A stretch of DNA of 64,000 bases from Roseovarius nanhaiticus (GTDB taxonomy: Bacteria; Pseudomonadota; Alphaproteobacteria; Rhodobacterales; Rhodobacteraceae), in the NCBI RefSeq assembly GCF_900156535.1, contig NZ_FTNV01000001.1:1488001-1552000 (forward strand). Reading direction: 5' to 3'. A program made the translations under genes and the position numbers. Shown in pieces: positions 47,716 to 56,037 of this stretch; the first letter of the stretch is position 1; every line of letters starts with the position of its first letter. A model generated the notes under the pieces. The model made no database searches. It was not told the origin of the DNA and was given only the letters and a program-made list of their open reading frames with translations.

Positions 47716-49326
47716 ATGACCAATACGAAAAACAGCGACCTGATGACGCGCCTCGGGGATGCCGCAAAATCCGGTACCATTTCGCGCCGCTCATTCATGA
47801 ATTACTCGATGGCCGCCGGCGTCGGCGCCAGCGCGGCCACGGGCCTGTGGACGACCAAGGCGAACGCGGCTCCTCAAAAGGGTGGCTTGTTCCGCTTTGG
47901 TGTCCATGACGGCAACTCGTCGGACACCCATGATCCCGGTACGTATGTCAGCCGCCAGCAGATCTATCTGGCGCACCAGTATCGTTCCTATCTGACGATG
48001 ATCAATCCCGACGGCAGCCTCGGCAATGACCTTGCCACCGGCTGGGAGCCGAATGACGATGCGTCGGTCTGGACCTTCGAGATCAACCAGAATGCCAGCT
48101 TCCACTCGGGCAAGCCGGTCACGTCCGAGGATGTCGTCGACTCGCTAAATTTCCACCGGGGCGAGGCATCGACATCGGCGGCGAAATCGCTTCTGTCGGG
48201 TGTGAAGGATATCCGCGCGGATGGCGAGCATACCGTCGTGGTCGAATTGACGGGCGGCAATGCCGATGTTCCGTGGCTCATGACGGATTATCACTTCGCG
48301 ATCTGCCCCAGCAATGGCGATGGCACGATTGATTGGCAGTCCGGCGACGGCTCTGGCCCCTACAAGATCGATAATGCCGAATGGGGTGTCCAATTCCGGC
48401 TGTCACGCCACGATGGCTGGCACCTTGAAGGCGCCTATTTCGATGAGCTCCTGATGCTGGTTCTCAACGATCCGAACGCGCGCCAGACGGCGCTTGTAAC
48501 GGGCGATGTGGACGCCGTGTCGCTGGTCGATCTCAAGACCAAGTCCCTGCTGGAGCGCGATCCGTCGATCGAGATCCTGTCGGTGCCCTCGGCGGCGGCC
48601 ATCACGATGCCGATGTTCTGCGACACGGCGCCGTTCGACGATGTGAATGTGCGCAACGCGCTGAAATTGTCGATGGACCGTGACGAGATCATCCAGAAGA
48701 TCGCCTTTGGCGAAGCGACGATGGGCAATGACTTCCATCACAGCCCTGCGATGCCCTACTTCCCCGAGGGGATCGAGCAGCGCACATACGATCCCGATCA
48801 GGCCAAGTCGCTGCTCAAGAAGGCAGGGGCAGAAAATCTCGAGGTCAGCCTCAGCACCGCGGATTCGGTGTTCTCCGGCGCGGTCGACATGTGCGTGCTT
48901 TACGCCGAGCAAGCCGCCGCAGCGGGCATCAAGGTGAACGTCGTTCGTGAGCCGAACGATGGTTACTATTCGGATGTCTGGCTGAAAAAGCCCTTCACTG
49001 CCGTCAGCTGGGGCGCACGCCCCACGCCCGACGTCATGTATTCGCTGGCCTATCAGTCGGATGCCGCCTGGAACGAGTCGCGCTGGCAGAACGAGAAGTT
49101 CAACGAGCTGCTGCAAAAGGCCAAGGCCGAGCTCAACGATGAACGTCGTTCCGAGATGTACCGCGAAATGGCGCTTCTGGCCCGGAATGACGGGGGGACG
49201 ATCATCCCGTTCTTCAACAACTTCGTCTATGCGGTGCGTGACAACGTGCAGACTGGCGAAAATCTGGCCCCCAGCTGGGAGCTGGACGGTGCCCGCGGCC
49301 CAAGCCGCTGGTGGTTCGCAAGCTGA
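47716..49326 (+). CDS. ABC transporter substrate-binding protein, family 5 (copy 1)
   Basis: The 536-residue protein carries a Tat signal (ISRRSFMNYSMAAG, residues 22-35), so it is exported folded to the periplasm. The mature part has the family 5 (DppA/OppA/NikA-type) pattern, including NGDGTIDWQSGDGSGPY and the long HDGNSSDTHDPGTY start. Such proteins bind peptides, nickel complexes or opines; the ligand is unknown. GGAGG lies 6 nt before the ATG at 47716. A second, very similar binding protein of equal length follows. Confidence 0.9.
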   Translation: MTNTKNSDLMTRLGDAAKSGTISRRSFMNYSMAAGVGASAATGLWTTKANAAPQKGGLFRFGVHDGNSSDTHDPGTYVSRQQIYLAHQYRSYLTMINPDGSLGNDLATGWEPNDDASVWTFEINQNASFHSGKPVTSEDVVDSLNFHRGEASTSAAKSLLSGVKDIRADGEHTVVVELTGGNADVPWLMTDYHFAICPSNGDGTIDWQSGDGSGPYKIDNAEWGVQFRLSRHDGWHLEGAYFDELLMLVLNDPNARQTALVTGDVDAVSLVDLKTKSLLERDPSIEILSVPSAAAITMPMFCDTAPFDDVNVRNALKLSMDRDEIIQKIAFGEATMGNDFHHSPAMPYFPEGIEQRTYDPDQAKSLLKKAGAENLEVSLSTADSVFSGAVDMCVLYAEQAAAAGIKVNVVREPNDGYYSDVWLKKPFTAVSWGARPTPDVMYSLAYQSDAAWNESRWQNEKFNELLQKAKAELNDERRSEMYREMALLARNDGGTIIPFFNNFVYAVRDNVQTGENLAPSWELDGARGPSRWWFAS

Positions 49327-49629
49327 TAGATCGAACGCATCAAGGGTCCGGCGCAGACGCGCCGGACCCGTCCATATGCGGCATGATTTCAGGCGACCTT
49401 ACACAAAAGATTTCGGCTATCCTTTGCGCAAAAAAAGTTGAACGGCAGGAAAATGCGATCCAAATCATCAACTTGGTATAAAGTTGTGGATGAAGGGTCC
49501 CATTCGTGTTTTGCTGTTGAAGGGTCGGTTTTGGACCTATTGCAGCGCGGCGATGCGCCGACACTGACAAGGCTCCGGACGGATCGCCCGGTGGCCCAAC
49601 AAAAATTATAAGACTCTCAGGGAGAAGAT
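49327..49629 (+). other. 303-bp spacer between the two binding-protein genes
   Basis: It holds the 11-bp hairpin at 49344-49369 and a TATAAA at 49477-49482 without a good -35. No gene is seen. A GGGAG ribosome site lies before the second copy. Confidence 0.5.
49344..49369 (+). other. mRNA-stabilising hairpin after binding-protein gene 1
   Basis: GGGTCCGGCGC / GCGCCGGACCC is a perfect 11-bp stem with AGAC loop and no U-tract, 17 bp after the stop codon. Confidence 0.65.
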
Positions 49630-51240
49630 ATGAAAAACCCAATAAACCAGCAGATGCTGGACCGACTGGCAGACGCTGCCCGCGAGGGGCGCATTTCGCG
49701 TCGTTCGTTCATGAATTATTCAATGGCGGCAGGCGTGACCGCAAGCGCCGCAACCGGCCTCTGGGGCACCGCAGCCCGCGCCGAGCCCAAGCGCGGCGGC
49801 ACGTTCCGGATCGCTCAGCATGACGGCAACTCGGGCGACACGCATGATCCCGGCATTTACGAATCCAATGCCGAGATCCTTTTGGCGCACACGTTCCGCG
49901 CCTTCCTGACGCAGATCAACACCGATGGCACATTGGGTGCGGACGTCGCAACCGAATGGTCCGCGACGCCCGATGCGTCCGAATGGACGTTCAAGCTGAA
50001 CCCGAATGCCAAGTTCCATTCGGGCGGCAAGGTCACGGCAGAGGATGTCGTCGCGTCGATGAATTTCCACCGCGGCGAAGAATCCACGTCGGCCGCCAAG
50101 TCCCTTCTGGGCTCGGTCACCGAGATCGTTGCCGATGACGAGGAAACCGTCACGTTCAAGCTGGATGCAGGCAACGCCGACCTGCCGTGGCTGATGACGG
50201 ACTACCACCTGGTCATCCTGCCCCGTAACGAGGACGGCACCGCAAACTGGCAGTCCGGCGATGGCTGCGGCCCCTACGTGCTGAATAAATGGGAGCCGGG
50301 CGTGAATGCATCTCTGACCCGGTTCGAGGATTGGCATGGTGAGGGCGCCTATTTCGATGCGATCGAAGTCACCTTCATCAACGATCCCAACGCACGCCAG
50401 ACCGCGCTGGTCACCGGCGACGCGGATGCCACGAGCCTTCTTGAAAACAAGACGATGTCCCTGCTCGAGCGGTCGCCCGACGTTCAGGTCATCAATATCC
50501 CGTCGGCACAGGCGATCACGATGCCGATGTTCTGCGACGTCGCGCCCTTCGACAATGTCGATGTGCGCAAGGCGCTGAAGCTGTCGATGAACCGCGACGA
50601 GCTGGTCGAGAAGATTTCCTTCGGCGCGGCAACTGTCGGCAACGACTTCCACCATTCGCCGGCGATGCCCTACTATCCCGAAGGGATCGAGCAGACACCC
50701 TATGACCCGGATCAGGCCAAATCCCTGCTGAAAAAGGCGGGCATGGAAAACCTGTCGGTCGATTTCAGTGTTGCGGATTCGATCACTGCGGGCGCCGTGG
50801 ACCTAGCTATTCTCTACAAGGAGCAGGCGAATGCGTCGGGTATCAACATCAATGTCACGCGGGAGCCGAGCGATGGATACTATTCCGACGTCTGGCTGAA
50901 AAAGCCGTGGTGCATGGTCGTCTGGGGCGCGCGCCCTACGCCCGACGTGATGTATTCGCTGGCCTACAAGGACGATGCCGCCTGGAACGAGAGCCATTGG
51001 CAGAACGAGCGCTTCAACGAGCTGCTGTTGCAAGCGAAGGCCGAGCTTGACGACAGCCTGCGCGCCGAGATGTACCGCGAGATGGCGATCCTGGCCAAGG
51101 ACGACGGCGGCACGATCATCCCGTTCTTCCCGAACTTCGTCTATGGCATCCGCAGCAATGTGGGCACCACAGGCGAGTATGCGGCCAGCTGGCATATGGA
51201 CGGCTACCGCGCCGCCAGCCGCTGGTGGTTCAAGGACTGA
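49630..51240 (+). CDS. ABC transporter substrate-binding protein, family 5 (copy 2)
   Basis: This second 536-residue protein has the same Tat motif at the same residues (ISRRSFMNYSMAAG) and long shared stretches with copy 1 (for example STSAAKSLL and YYSDVWLKKP), so the pair is a tandem duplication. Differences spread over the ligand-binding lobes suggest distinct ligands or affinities. It is followed by a very strong hairpin and then the permease genes. Confidence 0.9.
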   Translation: MKNPINQQMLDRLADAAREGRISRRSFMNYSMAAGVTASAATGLWGTAARAEPKRGGTFRIAQHDGNSGDTHDPGIYESNAEILLAHTFRAFLTQINTDGTLGADVATEWSATPDASEWTFKLNPNAKFHSGGKVTAEDVVASMNFHRGEESTSAAKSLLGSVTEIVADDEETVTFKLDAGNADLPWLMTDYHLVILPRNEDGTANWQSGDGCGPYVLNKWEPGVNASLTRFEDWHGEGAYFDAIEVTFINDPNARQTALVTGDADATSLLENKTMSLLERSPDVQVINIPSAQAITMPMFCDVAPFDNVDVRKALKLSMNRDELVEKISFGAATVGNDFHHSPAMPYYPEGIEQTPYDPDQAKSLLKKAGMENLSVDFSVADSITAGAVDLAILYKEQANASGININVTREPSDGYYSDVWLKKPWCMVVWGARPTPDVMYSLAYKDDAAWNESHWQNERFNELLLQAKAELDDSLRAEMYREMAILAKDDGGTIIPFFPNFVYGIRSNVGTTGEYAASWHMDGYRAASRWWFKD

Positions 51241-51436: not shown

Positions 51437-52393
51437 ATGGGAGACATTCTGGGGCTCGTTGCAAAACGGCTCGGACTGGGGCTGCTCATACTACTCGTGA
51501 TTTCAGTCATCATCTTCTTCATGGTCGAACTGCTGCCCGGCGACATCGCCGAGGCGGTTCTGGGCCAGGGGGCGACCGAAGAGAACGTCAGAAACCTGCG
51601 CGAGCAGATGGGACTGAACGATCCGGCCCTCGTGCGCTATTTCGAGTGGCTGAAAGGGGCGGTTTTCCTCGATTTCGGGCGTTCGATTGTGACGCAGGAA
51701 CCCGTGATGAGCGTGATCGGCGAGCGTTTCCGCAACACGCTTTTCTTGGCCACGTATGCAGCGGTGATCGCCGTTCCCTTTGCCATCATCCTCGGCGTGA
51801 TCGTCGCGCTCTTGCGCAATTCGATCTTCGACCGCGTGGCAAACGTGCTGACGCTGACCTCGATCTCCAGCCCGGAATTCTTCCTCGGCTACATTCTGAT
51901 CCTCTACTTCTCGGTCAAGTGGGGCATGTTCCCCGCCATCGCCAGCCTCAATGATGGCATGAACTTCTGGGATCTACTTCAGCGCACATTCCTGCCGGCG
52001 CTGACCCTGGTCCTTGTCGTTACGGCCCACATGATGCGCATGACGCGCGCGGCGATCATCAACCTGCTTGCCTCTCCCTATATCGAGATGGCCAAGCTGA
52101 AGGGCACGCCGCCCTGGAAGGTGATCGTGCGGCACGCGCTGCCCAATGCCTGGGCACCCATCATCAACGTCGTCGCGCTGAACCTGGCCTACCTCATCAC
52201 GGGCGTCGTCCTAGTCGAGGTGGTCTTCGTCTACCCCGGCATTGGACAGGCACTCGTCGATGCGGTTTCCAAGCGTGATTTCCCGGTGGTGCAGGCCTGC
52301 TGCCTGATCTTTGCCGCCACCTTCATTCTGCTGAACCTTGCGGCAGATGTCGGCGCAATCCTCACCAACCCGCGCCTGCGGCATCCGAAGTAA
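51437..52393 (+). CDS. ABC transporter permease, DppB type
   Basis: The 318-residue protein has six predicted membrane helices and the EAA-type loop EMAKLKGTPPWKVIVRHALPN (about 215-235) that contacts the ATPase. It starts MGDILGLVAKRLGLG, with AGGAGG upstream. It pairs with the next gene to form the channel of the importer. Confidence 0.93.
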   Translation: MGDILGLVAKRLGLGLLILLVISVIIFFMVELLPGDIAEAVLGQGATEENVRNLREQMGLNDPALVRYFEWLKGAVFLDFGRSIVTQEPVMSVIGERFRNTLFLATYAAVIAVPFAIILGVIVALLRNSIFDRVANVLTLTSISSPEFFLGYILILYFSVKWGMFPAIASLNDGMNFWDLLQRTFLPALTLVLVVTAHMMRMTRAAIINLLASPYIEMAKLKGTPPWKVIVRHALPNAWAPIINVVALNLAYLITGVVLVEVVFVYPGIGQALVDAVSKRDFPVVQACCLIFAATFILLNLAADVGAILTNPRLRHPK

Positions 52394-52405: not shown

Positions 52406-53506
52406 ATGGAAGATATTTCGACCCTATTGTACTTCGGCATGTCGCCCAGCTTGTTCGCGGTGGTCTACTACGCGATCCTGCTGATCGCGTCCTGTGCCTT
52501 CGCCTACTACAATCAGCGCTCGCCGTTCCTGCTGGTGTTCTCGCTGACCTTGCTGTCGATCATCGTCGGCATCGTGGGCGGGGCCAGCGCGCTCTCGATG
52601 ATTGCCGTCACGGCTTTTGTCATCGCGATGGCGGCGATGATGTCCTATGCGTTCCGCGAATTCCTGATCCTGATCGTCTCGACCGAGATGGCCAAGGAAC
52701 TCAGGACCGCGCCGCTGACCGCCGCCTTCGGCATGTTCATCATCTTCATCTATGCGATCGCGGGCATTTTCGCGCCCTGGATCGCGCCCCACGGTGAGGC
52801 CGAGGTTATCAGCAGCGCGTTTGCGCCAGCCGATGAAAACATGCTGCTGGGCGCCGACCAGCTGGGCCGCGACCTTTTTAGCCGGCTCATCTATGGCACG
52901 CGCAACTCGGTCGGCCTGGCGCTGACCGCGACGATGCTGGCCTTCCTCGCGGGTGCGTTTCTCGGCCTTCTGGCCGCCGTCAAAGGTGGCTGGCTCGACA
53001 ACCTCTTGGGCCGGGTCGCGGATGTGATCATGTCGATCCCGTCGCTGATCTTTGCCCTGCTGATGCTGTCGATCTTCGGCCCGTCCATGCCGGTCATCAT
53101 CGGTGCGGTCGCCATCATCTACGCGCCGCGCGTCTTCCGCCTGACGCGGGCCGTGGCGGGCGACGTTGTCGTCATGGACTATATCGAGGCCGCAAAGCTG
53201 CGTGGCGAGGGCACCGGATATCTCATCCGGCGCGAGATCCTGCCGAACTCGACCGCGCCACTGGTGGCGGAATTCGGGCTGGAATTTTGCTTCGTGTTCC
53301 TCTTGGTCGCGGGCCTGTCGTTCCTGGGTCTGGGTATCCAGCCGCCCACGGCCGACTGGGGCTCGATGGTGCGCGAGAACGCGACGCTAATCTCGTTCGG
53401 AGAAATCACACCGCTTATCCCGGCCGCCGCCATTGCGCTGTTGACCGTCGGCGTCAACTTCGTGGTGGACTGGATGCTGCACCGGTCCTCGGGACTGAAG
53501 GAGTAA
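52406..53506 (+). CDS. ABC transporter permease, DppC type, with extra N-terminal membrane helices
   Basis: The 366-residue protein has the usual DppC core from about residue 98 (ELRTAPLTAAFGMFII) with the EAAKLRGEGTGYLIRREILPN coupling loop. Before it lie about 95 residues with three or four hydrophobic segments not found in standard DppC proteins of about 300 residues. It lies 12 nt after the DppB-like gene and its stop abuts the ATPase gene. Confidence 0.92.
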   Translation: MEDISTLLYFGMSPSLFAVVYYAILLIASCAFAYYNQRSPFLLVFSLTLLSIIVGIVGGASALSMIAVTAFVIAMAAMMSYAFREFLILIVSTEMAKELRTAPLTAAFGMFIIFIYAIAGIFAPWIAPHGEAEVISSAFAPADENMLLGADQLGRDLFSRLIYGTRNSVGLALTATMLAFLAGAFLGLLAAVKGGWLDNLLGRVADVIMSIPSLIFALLMLSIFGPSMPVIIGAVAIIYAPRVFRLTRAVAGDVVVMDYIEAAKLRGEGTGYLIRREILPNSTAPLVAEFGLEFCFVFLLVAGLSFLGLGIQPPTADWGSMVRENATLISFGEITPLIPAAAIALLTVGVNFVVDWMLHRSSGLKE

Positions 53507-53512
53507 ATGACG

Positions 53513-55210
53513 ATGAACGATAAAAAGAAAAAAGAAGTCCTGCTCAAGATCCGAAACCTCAAGATCGAGGGCTACACGGACGAGACGTGGGTGCCCATCA
53601 TCAAGGGCGTGGATCTGACCCTGCATCGCGGTGAGGTCATGGGCCTCATCGGCGAGAGCGGCGCAGGCAAATCCACCATCGGCGCTGCCGCCATGGGCTA
53701 TGCCCGTGACGGCACGCGGATCACGCCGGACAGCTCGATCGAGTTCGACGGGATGGAGCTGACGACCGCCACCGAAGGCGAGCGGCGCGGCCTGCGGGGC
53801 GCGCGCATCGCCTATGTCGCGCAATCGGCGGCAGCCTCGTTCAACCCGGCGCACAAGATCATCGACCAGCACACCGAGGCGCCGCTGCACTACCGCCTGC
53901 AAAAGCGGATGGCGGCGCAGGAGGACGCGATCGAGCTTTACAACAAGCTGCGCCTGCCCAACCCGGACGAAATCGGCTTTCGCTATCCGCACCAGGTGTC
54001 GGGTGGTCAGCTTCAGCGCGCGATGACCGCGATGGCCATGTCCTGCCGGCCCGATCTGATCATCTTCGACGAGCCGACGACGGCGCTCGACGTGACAACG
54101 CAGATCGAGGTTCTGGCCGCGATCCGCGATATCGTGGACGAGTTCAACACCGCCGCGCTCTACATCACGCATGATCTGGCCGTGGTTGCCCAGATGGCCG
54201 ACACGATCAAGGTCCTGCTCAAGGGCGAAGAGGTCGAAGAGGCGCCGACCAAGCAGATGCTGGACAACCCCAAGGAGGATTACACCAAATCCCTCTGGGC
54301 CGTCCGCAGCTTCGAATCCCCGCAGCGCAAGCGGGAGGGCCGCGAGCCGCTGATCGAGGTCAAGAACGTCGATGCGTCCTACGCCTCGGGCCCCAAGATC
54401 CTCGATGATGTCAGCTTTGACATCTACGAGGGGATGACTGTTGCCGTGGTGGGCGAGTCCGGTTCGGGTAAATCGACCACTGCGCGCGTGATCACAGGCC
54501 TTTTGCCGCCGGAAAAGGGCGAGGTTCTCTTCAAGGGGCAGCCCTTCCCGGCGGATTACAAACAGCGCAACAAGGAACAGCTGCGCCAATGCCAGATGAT
54601 CTATCAGATGGCCGACACCGCGCTGAATCCCAAGGTCAAGATCAGCGAGATCATCGGGCGCCCTGCGAAATTCTACTCGGGTCTTTCGGGTGCCGCGCTG
54701 AAAAACCGTGTGGATGAGCTTCTCGATCTGATCGAGCTGGAGCCGTCGCAATACTACAACCGCTACCCACCCGAGCTATCGGGCGGTCAGAAGCAGCGGA
54801 TCGGTATTGCGCGCGCCCTCGCGGCCGAGCCCAGTTTCATCGTCTGCGACGAGGTGACGTCCGCGCTCGATCAGCTGGTGGCCGAGGGAATTTTGCGCCT
54901 GCTGGACCGTCTGCAGGACGAGTTGAACCTCGCCTATATGTTCATCACACATGATCTTGCCACAGTCCGGTCGATCGCGGATGAGGTCGTCGTGATGCAG
55001 CATGGCAAGGTGGTGGAGCAGGGGCCGAAGGACAAGATGTTCACGCCGCCGCATCACCCCTATACCGATCTGCTGCTGAGCTCGGTGCCCGAGATGGACC
55101 CCGAGTGGCTGACCACCCTCCTCGAAGAGCGGGGTCTGGAAAATCTGGGAGAAGCCGCGTCGGACAAGATCGATCCGGAAGACAAGAAGGTCGCCGCGAC
55201 CAAGGCCTGA
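53513..55210 (+). CDS. Fused ABC ATPase (DppD-DppF type, two nucleotide-binding domains)
   Basis: The 565-residue protein contains two complete ATPase domains in one chain. Domain 1 has GESGAGKST, SGGQLQRA and LIIFDEPTTALD; domain 2 has GESGSGKST, SGGQKQRIGIARAL and FIVCDEVTSALD. It powers the importer encoded just upstream. ATG at 53513 has AAGGAG 9 nt upstream; the ATG at 53507 is only 3 nt from it, so the later start is preferred. The C-terminal 25 residues are charged. Confidence 0.92.
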   Translation: MNDKKKKEVLLKIRNLKIEGYTDETWVPIIKGVDLTLHRGEVMGLIGESGAGKSTIGAAAMGYARDGTRITPDSSIEFDGMELTTATEGERRGLRGARIAYVAQSAAASFNPAHKIIDQHTEAPLHYRLQKRMAAQEDAIELYNKLRLPNPDEIGFRYPHQVSGGQLQRAMTAMAMSCRPDLIIFDEPTTALDVTTQIEVLAAIRDIVDEFNTAALYITHDLAVVAQMADTIKVLLKGEEVEEAPTKQMLDNPKEDYTKSLWAVRSFESPQRKREGREPLIEVKNVDASYASGPKILDDVSFDIYEGMTVAVVGESGSGKSTTARVITGLLPPEKGEVLFKGQPFPADYKQRNKEQLRQCQMIYQMADTALNPKVKISEIIGRPAKFYSGLSGAALKNRVDELLDLIELEPSQYYNRYPPELSGGQKQRIGIARALAAEPSFIVCDEVTSALDQLVAEGILRLLDRLQDELNLAYMFITHDLATVRSIADEVVVMQHGKVVEQGPKDKMFTPPHHPYTDLLLSSVPEMDPEWLTTLLEERGLENLGEAASDKIDPEDKKVAATKA

Positions 55211-55265: not shown

Positions 55266-55300
55266 AAAAAGCGGCGGATGGGGGACCATCCGCCGCTTTG
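55266..55300 (-). terminator. Bidirectional terminator between the ATPase gene and small-peptide genes
   Basis: A perfect 14-bp stem (55268-55281 with 55286-55299) has a T5 run on the minus strand and only T3 on the plus strand. It is best as the terminator of the minus-strand small peptide. Confidence 0.85.
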
Positions 55301-55327: not shown

Positions 55328-55447
55328 TCAGACCATTGCCATCCCGGTCAGGATCATCGTCCCCAGAATGACGGCATAGACGATGAGGACAGCGGGCCAT
55401 GAGGCGCTGTGCATGCGCAGTTCGCGGTTCAGTTGGTCTCTGGTCAT
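55328..55447 (-). CDS. 39-residue membrane peptide (copy 2)
   Basis: The peptide reads MTRDQLNRELRMHSASWPAV then a hydrophobic stretch LIVYAVILGTMILTGMAMV. A basic/polar N-terminus (1-17) and one membrane helix (18-37) are clear. It is nearly identical to the copy at 55592-55711, which has a consensus ribosome site. Its own ribosome site is weak. Two upstream ATGs are in frame, but the homology starts here. A strong terminator follows. I do not recognise the family. Confidence 0.75.
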   Translation of the reverse strand: MTRDQLNRELRMHSASWPAVLIVYAVILGTMILTGMAMV

Positions 55448-55547
55448 GGGCATAATCGCTTCTGTCGCTACCGGTGTGCTCCGTTTCACCGGCAGAAATG
55501 GGTATTGGCGCATGGGTGTTTCCCATCCGCCGCTGCGCTCGCTGAAC

Positions 55548-55577
55548 TTTTCGAAAAGCCGGACCGTGAGGTCCGGC
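55548..55577 (-). terminator. Terminator between the two small-peptide genes
   Basis: GCCGGACC / GGTCCGGC stem (55558-55565 with 55570-55577), followed on the minus strand by TTTTCG. It would limit readthrough from copy 1 into copy 2. Confidence 0.75.
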
Positions 55578-55591
55578 GTAGGCCATGGATG

Positions 55592-55711
55592 TCAGGTCAT
55601 CGACATCGCGGACAGGACCATGGTCCCGACAATAAGGCCATAGACGATCAGCACAGCGGGCCAAGTCGCACTATGCATGCGAAGTTCGCGGTTCAGTTGA
55701 TCCCGGGTCAT
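55592..55711 (-). CDS. 39-residue membrane peptide (copy 1)
   Basis: The peptide reads MTRDQLNRELRMHSATWPAV then LIVYGLIVGTMVLSAMSMT. A perfect AAAGGAGG ribosome site lies 6 nt before the ATG at 55711, strong evidence for translation. It has a polar N-terminal half with conserved RELRMHS and a single C-terminal membrane helix. It differs from copy 2 at only about eight positions. An FNR-like palindrome lies 172 bp upstream. Function unknown; a small accessory subunit of a respiratory or transport complex is one possibility. Confidence 0.82.
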   Translation of the reverse strand: MTRDQLNRELRMHSATWPAVLIVYGLIVGTMVLSAMSMT

Positions 55712-56037
55712 GGGTGCCCTCCTTTGATCTGCGCTTCCGTCTCTTAGGGCGTTTCCGTTTGCCCTGACCCGCATCTACCCATTTTATTTGCCTTTGCAAT
55801 GGGCAAATGAATAAAATTACATGCACACTGCGCATAGCTGCTGAGCCGGGTGTGCATGAGTTGCTTTTATCGCTTTAAATGCTTGATTTAAATCACAAAA
55901 AAACCGAAGGATCACCCGCGAAATATTATTGCGGGCAAGGCGCTGTCGATTTTGTCACATCTTGTGATCGAATGGCGCCCTTGATGGCGGGTATCTGTTC
56001 ATGACCGCCGAACCAACGCTGCGGCCTGAGAGGCGTC
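55712..56037 (-). other. 326-bp AT-richer regulatory region upstream of the small peptides
   Basis: It contains the FNR-like site at 55883-55896, a 9-bp inverted repeat CATGCACAC/GTGTGCATG (55820-55828 with 55850-55858) and an imperfect AT-rich inverted repeat near 55780-55817. It also holds the 3' end region of the carB transcript. No other gene is seen. Confidence 0.6.
55883..55896. promoter_or_regulatory. FNR/FnrL-like binding site
   Basis: TTGATTTAAATCAC matches the FNR consensus TTGAT-N4-ATCAA at 9 of 10 fixed positions. The inner 12 bp are a perfect palindrome. It lies upstream of the small-peptide genes on the minus strand and suggests oxygen control. Confidence 0.65.

Follow-up and report, generated by a model that had tools for sequence, protein, structure and literature searches.

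A conserved tandem pair of 39-residue peptides, probably accessory to the neighbouring Dpp/Opp-type ABC importer of Roseovarius nanhaiticus

Two small tandem genes of Roseovarius nanhaiticus encode peptides with a single predicted membrane helix, which we propose to be separately expressed accessory or regulatory subunits of the Dpp/Opp-type importer encoded next to them, presumably binding it in a manner similar to AcrZ. We assign this reading a probability of about 0.6. The genes evolve as coding sequence and are conserved as a family, they are linked to and co-occur with the importer, and they possess a conserved promoter of their own and a family-wide leader stem-loop. Since the peptide accompanies the importer even in distant bacteria in which the genes lie far apart, it probably serves the pump as an accessory part, rather than being the oxygen-controlled respiratory protein that a sequence-only reading had suggested. 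The window, to which positions refer unless a locus is named, is the whole stretch of 64,000 nucleotides that was analysed, and its relevant genes are the following:

47716 to 49326, plus strand: family-5 solute-binding protein 1 (Pfam PF00496; the query began one codon earlier)
49630 to 51240, plus strand: family-5 solute-binding protein 2 (Pfam PF00496)
51437 to 52393, plus strand: DppB/OppB-type permease (Pfam, NCBIfam)
52406 to 53506, plus strand: DppC/OppC-type permease, extended N-terminally by about 95 residues (Pfam, NCBIfam, structure model)
53507 to 55210, plus strand: fused double ATPase of the importer, transcribed towards the small genes (Pfam, NCBIfam)
55328 to 55447, minus strand: small membrane protein, copy 2 (39 aa), less strongly conserved (open reading frame, profile matches)
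55592 to 55711, minus strand: small membrane protein, copy 1 (39 aa), more strongly conserved (open reading frame, profile matches, pN/pS)

Both small genes are real and evolve as coding sequence. The two tandem minus-strand open reading frames of 39 codons are present where they had been claimed; they are 77% identical to each other and lie between carB, on the same strand, and the convergent ATPase gene of the ABC importer. A search of the same genome to E 10 found no third copy, the two window copies being the sole matches. In 1304 pairs drawn from 99 sequences, pN/pS was 0.27 in frame versus 1.16 and 2.31 in the two shifted frames; although the pairs are not independent, comparing one frame with another remains a fair control. 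Differences among the peptide genes fell mostly on the third codon position (20837), followed by the first (9708) and the second (4804). A literature search found no paper combining Roseovarius and ribosome profiling.

Aligned members of the peptide family are 39-42 aa long. Residues R8, R11, P18 and Y24 are conserved in an alignment of 13 members, and an alignment of 69 members shows R3 and Y24 to be invariant and D4, R8 and E9 to occur in at least 90%. The predicted model (mean pLDDT 95.1) consists of a helix at residues 3-13, a break, and a helix at residues 17-38. One helix face is conserved (Y24, A/G25, G/A29, T30, S/T34, A35) and appears to suit packing against other helices. The positive-inside rule governs the orientation of membrane proteins, and by this rule the head of the peptide should face the cytoplasm. 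At E up to 10, neither window peptide had a match in Pfam or NCBIfam; the 69 members, searched at E up to 1, gave scattered matches of 1-3 members to unrelated families and no credible family. The lowest E (4e-4) belonged to an adenovirus core protein model that matched 2/69 members only and was rejected as a family. A profile search of the PDB with the peptide gave nothing below E 1.4, a plasmid search gave one Streptomyces match at E = 10, and Rfam gave four matches, all far under the gathering score. Because the Pfam, NCBIfam and PDB searches name no family, the peptide family is absent from these libraries; within Pfam, NCBIfam, the PDB and the literature searched, it is undescribed.

The neighbouring genes encode an ABC importer of the Dpp/Opp/Nik type, with family-5 binding protein, two BPD permeases and an ATPase pair with oligo_HPY, and contain the Pfam domains PF00496, PF00528, PF19300, PF00005 (twice) and PF08352 (oligo_HPY). 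Importers of the Dpp/Opp type are common bacterial uptake systems. The binding proteins and permeases reached no NCBIfam cut-off, the NCBIfam relatives of the extended permease being nickel, dipeptide and oligopeptide permeases, all under their cut-offs. The ATPase scored above the cut-offs of NikD and NikE, among 25 NCBIfam families listed; these are half-ATPase models, and consequently no substrate is fixed by their match. The model of the extended permease (mean pLDDT 65) can serve only as an indication; it places helices at 14-34 and 38-90, before residue 95. Three further observations concern the importer genes. Both consecutive binding proteins (47716-51240), placed ahead of one importer, start with the twin-arginine-like SRRSFMNY. 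A stretch like TTTCGTGTTTTG...GTCG(C/G)TTT, at about 49530-49630 in the window, lies upstream of the binding-protein gene adjoining permease 1 in at least 8 of the 16 sequences listed. Finally, the match to the ATPase (53507-55210) stops near residue 551 in many of the 80 loci described below, the remainder being 82-94% identical, which indicates a variable C-terminal tail.

Linkage was examined in a named collection that, when searched with the ATPase, yielded at least 579 relatives, of which the nearest 80 to that of the window, many of them Roseovarius, were kept. The peptide is encoded convergently downstream, in one or two copies, in 74 of these nearest 80 ATPase loci (of at least 579). 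Note that this count includes two imperfect cases, L062 (no gene model) and L101 (degenerate), that one plus-strand match in L066 was left out beforehand, and that the 6/80 without the peptide include a locus (L083) whose contig ends 170 bases past the ATPase. Among ten regions fetched around peptide matches, the importer was convergent in nine and carB was found in one (G278). Linkage to carB was considered and rejected: carB occurs in 37/73 peptide loci of the named set (some incomplete), but near the peptide in only two (G000, G278) of the 13 positives of the wider family sample.

This sample comprised 394 genomes of the same bacterial family, drawn without regard to the importer, and the peptide profile identified 13 real positives. 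The first pass scored 19 candidates per genome. Fourteen genomes reached the cut-off and one was left out (G060; E 0.005, 22 residues inside a 432-codon frame); seven weak matches of an early search (E 0.02-0.1) were also left out, and two genomes with E 0.003 were kept. Taken together with the pN/pS values and the 74 linked loci, these homologues back the earlier claim of a real, conserved small membrane-protein system. The extended permease is present in 33/394 genomes and in 13/13 of those with the peptide (hypergeometric 8e-16, a value that ignores phylogeny). The peptide lies directly beside the ATPase in 11 of the 13, 2 kb off behind another gene in G007, and on another contig in G267. 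The intervening gene of G007 is a sulfatase-like open reading frame (choline-sulfatase-like by eye; L025 6602-8149), a possible hint to the importer substrate. A draw of 292 genomes across the order yielded 13 real positives, each of them in the same family (G528 and G537 were left out), and the two regions newly fetched from it both have the peptide beside the ATPase. The peptide was not detected in 20/33 family genomes with a permease match (some weak); the downstream regions of 17 of these contain no peptide, although in 3 of the 17 the contig stops no more than 300 bases from the ATPase.

A draw of 385 genomes across the class added three peptide positives in other families (G628 was left out), and the three other orders concerned contain the peptide in 2/43, 6/36 and 1/1 genomes (G984 was left out; 17 residues, E 3e-4). 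The importer is absent from the regions fetched around all nine of these peptides, seven of which reach about 7 kb either side; those of G1007 and G1008 end at contig ends, with the downstream (ATPase) side free for 6.3 and 1.9 kb. The extended permease is nevertheless encoded elsewhere in 9/9 of these genomes (E 7e-34 to 3e-39), with permease 1 and the ATPase adjoining. Among seven chosen peptide-negative relatives, two (G1018, G1019) have the extended permease, four have weaker partial matches and one has none. The four partial matches begin at residue 70-97, and thus the extension is largely or wholly missing or unlike in them, although the open frame of G964 is still long (419 codons). Two of the orders were searched with both queries. 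The permease occurs there in 2/43 and 8/36 genomes, that is, in 8/8 peptide-positive genomes versus 2/71 others (Fisher 1.7e-9, which ignores shared descent). Within one genus (g499), G949 and G962 have peptide and permease, and G678, G961, G963 and G964 have neither. Overall, the importer is present in all 22 peptide-positive genomes tested, 13 from the family and 9 from other orders. The repeated unlinked pattern in other orders is a stronger argument than the statistics. The 20/33 family genomes with permease and without peptide, together with G1018 and G1019, indicate either that this permease class can do without the peptide or that the peptide escaped detection.

Where the peptide is unlinked, catabolic genes are found near it, and it must therefore be considered that peptide and importer belong to one pathway and do not touch. 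The peptide would then share the physiology of the importer (e.g., uptake and breakdown of one nutrient class) and bind another membrane protein. In G267 the unlinked peptide (L027 7690-7806) is beside a FAD-linked oxidase (D-lactate/glycolate-type by eye), oxidases 50-54% identical to this enzyme lie 1.3-2.4 kb from the peptide in four genomes of another order (L190, L218, L219, L220), and a FAD oxidoreductase is directly upstream of the peptide in G949 and G962. However, these catabolic neighbours differ between lineages, whereas the importer was found in every one of the peptide-positive genomes tested, and we consider a shared pathway a minor possibility.

A tree of the ATPase (FastTree, 110 rows; 38/100 inner branches weak) requires at least 6 changes to explain presence and absence of the peptide and at least 5 to explain one versus two copies. 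The history would fit presence of the peptide over most of one large clade, with losses. Loci with two copies cluster in one clade that includes the window, with a separate origin in two Aliiruegeria loci. In these two loci (L088, L091) the copies are 2.2 kb apart. Over 24 two-copy genomes, mean identity was 0.74 between first copies versus 0.60 between second copies.

The regions flanking the small genes contain the following features:

55268 to 55299, no strand assigned: long hairpin in the gap that separates copy 2 from the convergent ATPase gene (minus-strand z -6.80)
55558 to 55577, minus strand: hairpin followed by a T-run, after copy 1 (z -3.16)
55718 to 55725, minus strand: ribosome-binding site AAAGGAGG of copy 1 (read from the sequence)
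55747 to 55764, minus strand: stem-loop (GGGC..GCCC) near the expected 5' end of the transcript (leader folding across 74 sequences)
55772 to 55799, minus strand: conserved promoter, TTGCAA (55794-55799), 16 nt, TAGATG (55772-55777) (alignment and matrix score)
55810 to 55836, minus strand: upstream element, loosely TGCA-N4/5-TGCAT-N2-ATTTT (alignment of upstream regions)
55883 to 55896, plus strand: FNR-like 9/10 box TTGATTTAAATCAC, judged a chance match (motif scan)

The ribosome site claimed for copy 1 is indeed there, 6 nt ahead of its ATG, and GGAGG precedes copy 1 in 23/23 two-copy relatives listed; copy 2 has no clear ribosome site in the window. Promoters were compared in 74 upstream regions, taken from the window, from G278 and from 72 of the 80 loci. 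They share TTGC/A.., a spacer of 16-17 nt (73/74) and TA..TG(C/G)G, with the -10 element about 45-90 nt before the first ATG. A matrix score of at least 11 was reached by 72/74 upstream regions versus 5/370 shuffles and 1/74 neighbouring blocks, scores that are optimistic because the matrix was fitted on the same 74 sequences. The strict form of the upstream element occurs in 20/74 upstream regions and 0.0 times in simple shuffles, and the element may be an operator or UP-like. A promoter element common to the peptide and the importer operon was sought and rejected, the peptide promoter patterns and the upstream element occurring in 0/74 regions upstream of the binding-protein gene. Downstream of the promoter, the first 30 nt fold better than shuffles (mean z -1.33, 42/74 below -1), and the last 30 nt of the leader fold no better than shuffles (mean z 0.05, 7/74 below -1); the fold of the window leader taken alone is not significant (z -0.67). 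The claim that each copy has its own terminator holds in the window, in which a strong hairpin and T-run follow each copy, and fails as a general rule among relatives, since a terminator was recognized by pattern between the copies in 1/23 two-copy relatives and after the last copy in 27/73 loci. A simple terminator scan listed neither of the two window hairpins, and that at 55268-55299 could serve both strands.

Some of these features are also those of the type I toxin of a toxin-antitoxin pair: small size, a hydrophobic helix, a strong ribosome site, a leader stem-loop throughout the family and tandem copies. The place of the genes beside one importer, a co-occurrence that persists when they are unlinked, and purifying selection make such a toxin very unlikely. 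The leader stem-loop and the conserved promoter could likewise belong to a conserved leader or small RNA in which the open reading frame matters little, an explanation that the low in-frame pN/pS, against the values in shifted frames, and the excess of third-position differences render highly improbable.

A 9/10 match to the FNR/FnrL box is present upstream as had been claimed, and we judge it to have arisen by chance. Two FNR-like boxes with at most 1 mismatch were found in the 64,000-nt window versus 1.28 expected, and 41/100 shuffles reach 2. When nine upstream regions were aligned, the 8 relatives compared with the window all lacked the full box at the corresponding place; a likeness to its right half, ATCA(A), is kept at that place in L041, L042, L044, L045 and G278, and to its left half in none. 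No perfect box occurs in the 74 upstream regions, and boxes with one mismatch number 3, against a mean of 1.00 and a maximum of 4 in shuffles. Two of these 3 start exactly on the -10 element, so that only the window has a box elsewhere. Allowing up to two mismatches gives 13 boxes versus 9.5 in shuffles (max 15). The box extends from -185 to -172 relative to the ATG, with the -10 at -66, and therefore lies about 110-112 bp upstream of the conserved -10, its distance to the transcription start resting on the predicted promoter. An extract of a study of FnrL/Dnr in Dinoroseobacter considers distances of 39.5 and 41.5 bp between site and transcription start almost optimal and mentions one site 96.5 bp from the translation start (PMC5398030). 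Membership in the FNR/FnrL regulon was consequently rejected, the box being at chance level, unconserved and far from -41.5, and the proposed oxygen control by FNR was not borne out. Small subunits of oxidases are known, among them CydX, CcoQ and subunit IV of the aa3 type. No oxidase-subunit family appears among the Pfam and NCBIfam families listed for the window peptides and the 69 members. An FNR-controlled subunit or regulator of a respiratory oxidase, the role once suggested from the 9/10 box, is thus barely credible, no evidence having been found for it and the conserved neighbour and co-occurring partner being the Dpp/Opp-type importer.

We return to the peptide as an accessory or regulatory subunit of this importer; membrane insertion, orientation, physical binding, direction of effect and substrate are what we infer in the following account. 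The charged head (residues 3-13) would lie along the membrane and, after a short break, the one helix (17-38) would cross it. The peptide would be made from its own promoter, apart from the importer operon. Its membrane helix probably packs against the membrane part of the importer, whose DppC-type permease has the extra N-terminal helices, and the peptide may tune how active or stable the importer is or which substrate it prefers, in an AcrZ- or MgtS-like manner. Speaking against a subunit, peptide and importer are not in one operon. Furthermore, other genomes have the importer and lack the peptide, which points to a modulator more than to an indispensable part.

A bolder reading, which we regard as unlikely, views the peptide as a free-standing counterpart of the elbow helix and first membrane helix of the DppC-type permease, docking on the extra N-terminal helices as a detachable gate or lock. 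The segment AKELRTAP of the permease, located before its first DppC-type helix, and NRELRMHS of the peptide resemble each other weakly in a single profile comparison (14 columns, p 0.003-0.006, hhalign probability 6.5-9.5%), and the models of the permease (pLDDT 65) and of the peptide have an equal helix-break-helix architecture. If true, the importer would be a Dpp/Opp system controlled by a small protein. If the peptide is an accessory subunit as preferred here, nutrient uptake would have an extra layer of control, exerted by a small protein whose occurrence tracks that of one importer class in several alphaproteobacterial orders, even where the genes are unlinked, and the undescribed family would gain a direct, testable partner.

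How do these proteins compare with known systems? The best structure matches of the extended-permease model are chains of E. coli DppBCDF (8z1x_B and others), which have about 280-290 residues versus 366 here and leave the N-terminal extension of about 95 residues unmatched. With at most about 50 aa and one (predicted) helix, and with a gene linked to or co-occurring with a transporter, the peptide has two of the properties of the AcrZ-like class. AcrZ, as described in excerpts of two papers, has 49 aa and one membrane helix, binds AcrB of AcrAB-TolC and alters its specificity (PMC10710835, PMC7267776). The peptide is proposed to act similarly, as a one-helix small protein on the membrane part of a transporter, but the target of AcrZ is an RND pump and that of the peptide would be a Dpp/Opp-type ABC importer. 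No AcrZ entry was among the NCBIfam and Pfam families listed for the 69 members at E up to 1, a negative that reaches as far as the models of these libraries. The excerpt of one of these papers also presents MgtS, MgtR, MgtU, MntS and WatS1 as small regulators of transporters, some acting via transporter stability (PMC10710835). These differ in acting on other transporter classes, and their families were not listed in the Pfam and NCBIfam scans of the 69 members. The same excerpt assigns its small-protein regulators to transporters of other classes, with a single proposed case in ABC uptake. This is LucB, a small, conserved transmembrane protein of a mycobacterial lipid-uptake ABC system and a proposed regulator (PMC10710835). 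LucB was found by structure, in a lipid uptake system and not a Dpp/Opp importer; like the peptide described here, it is a conserved small transmembrane protein that accompanies an ABC importer.
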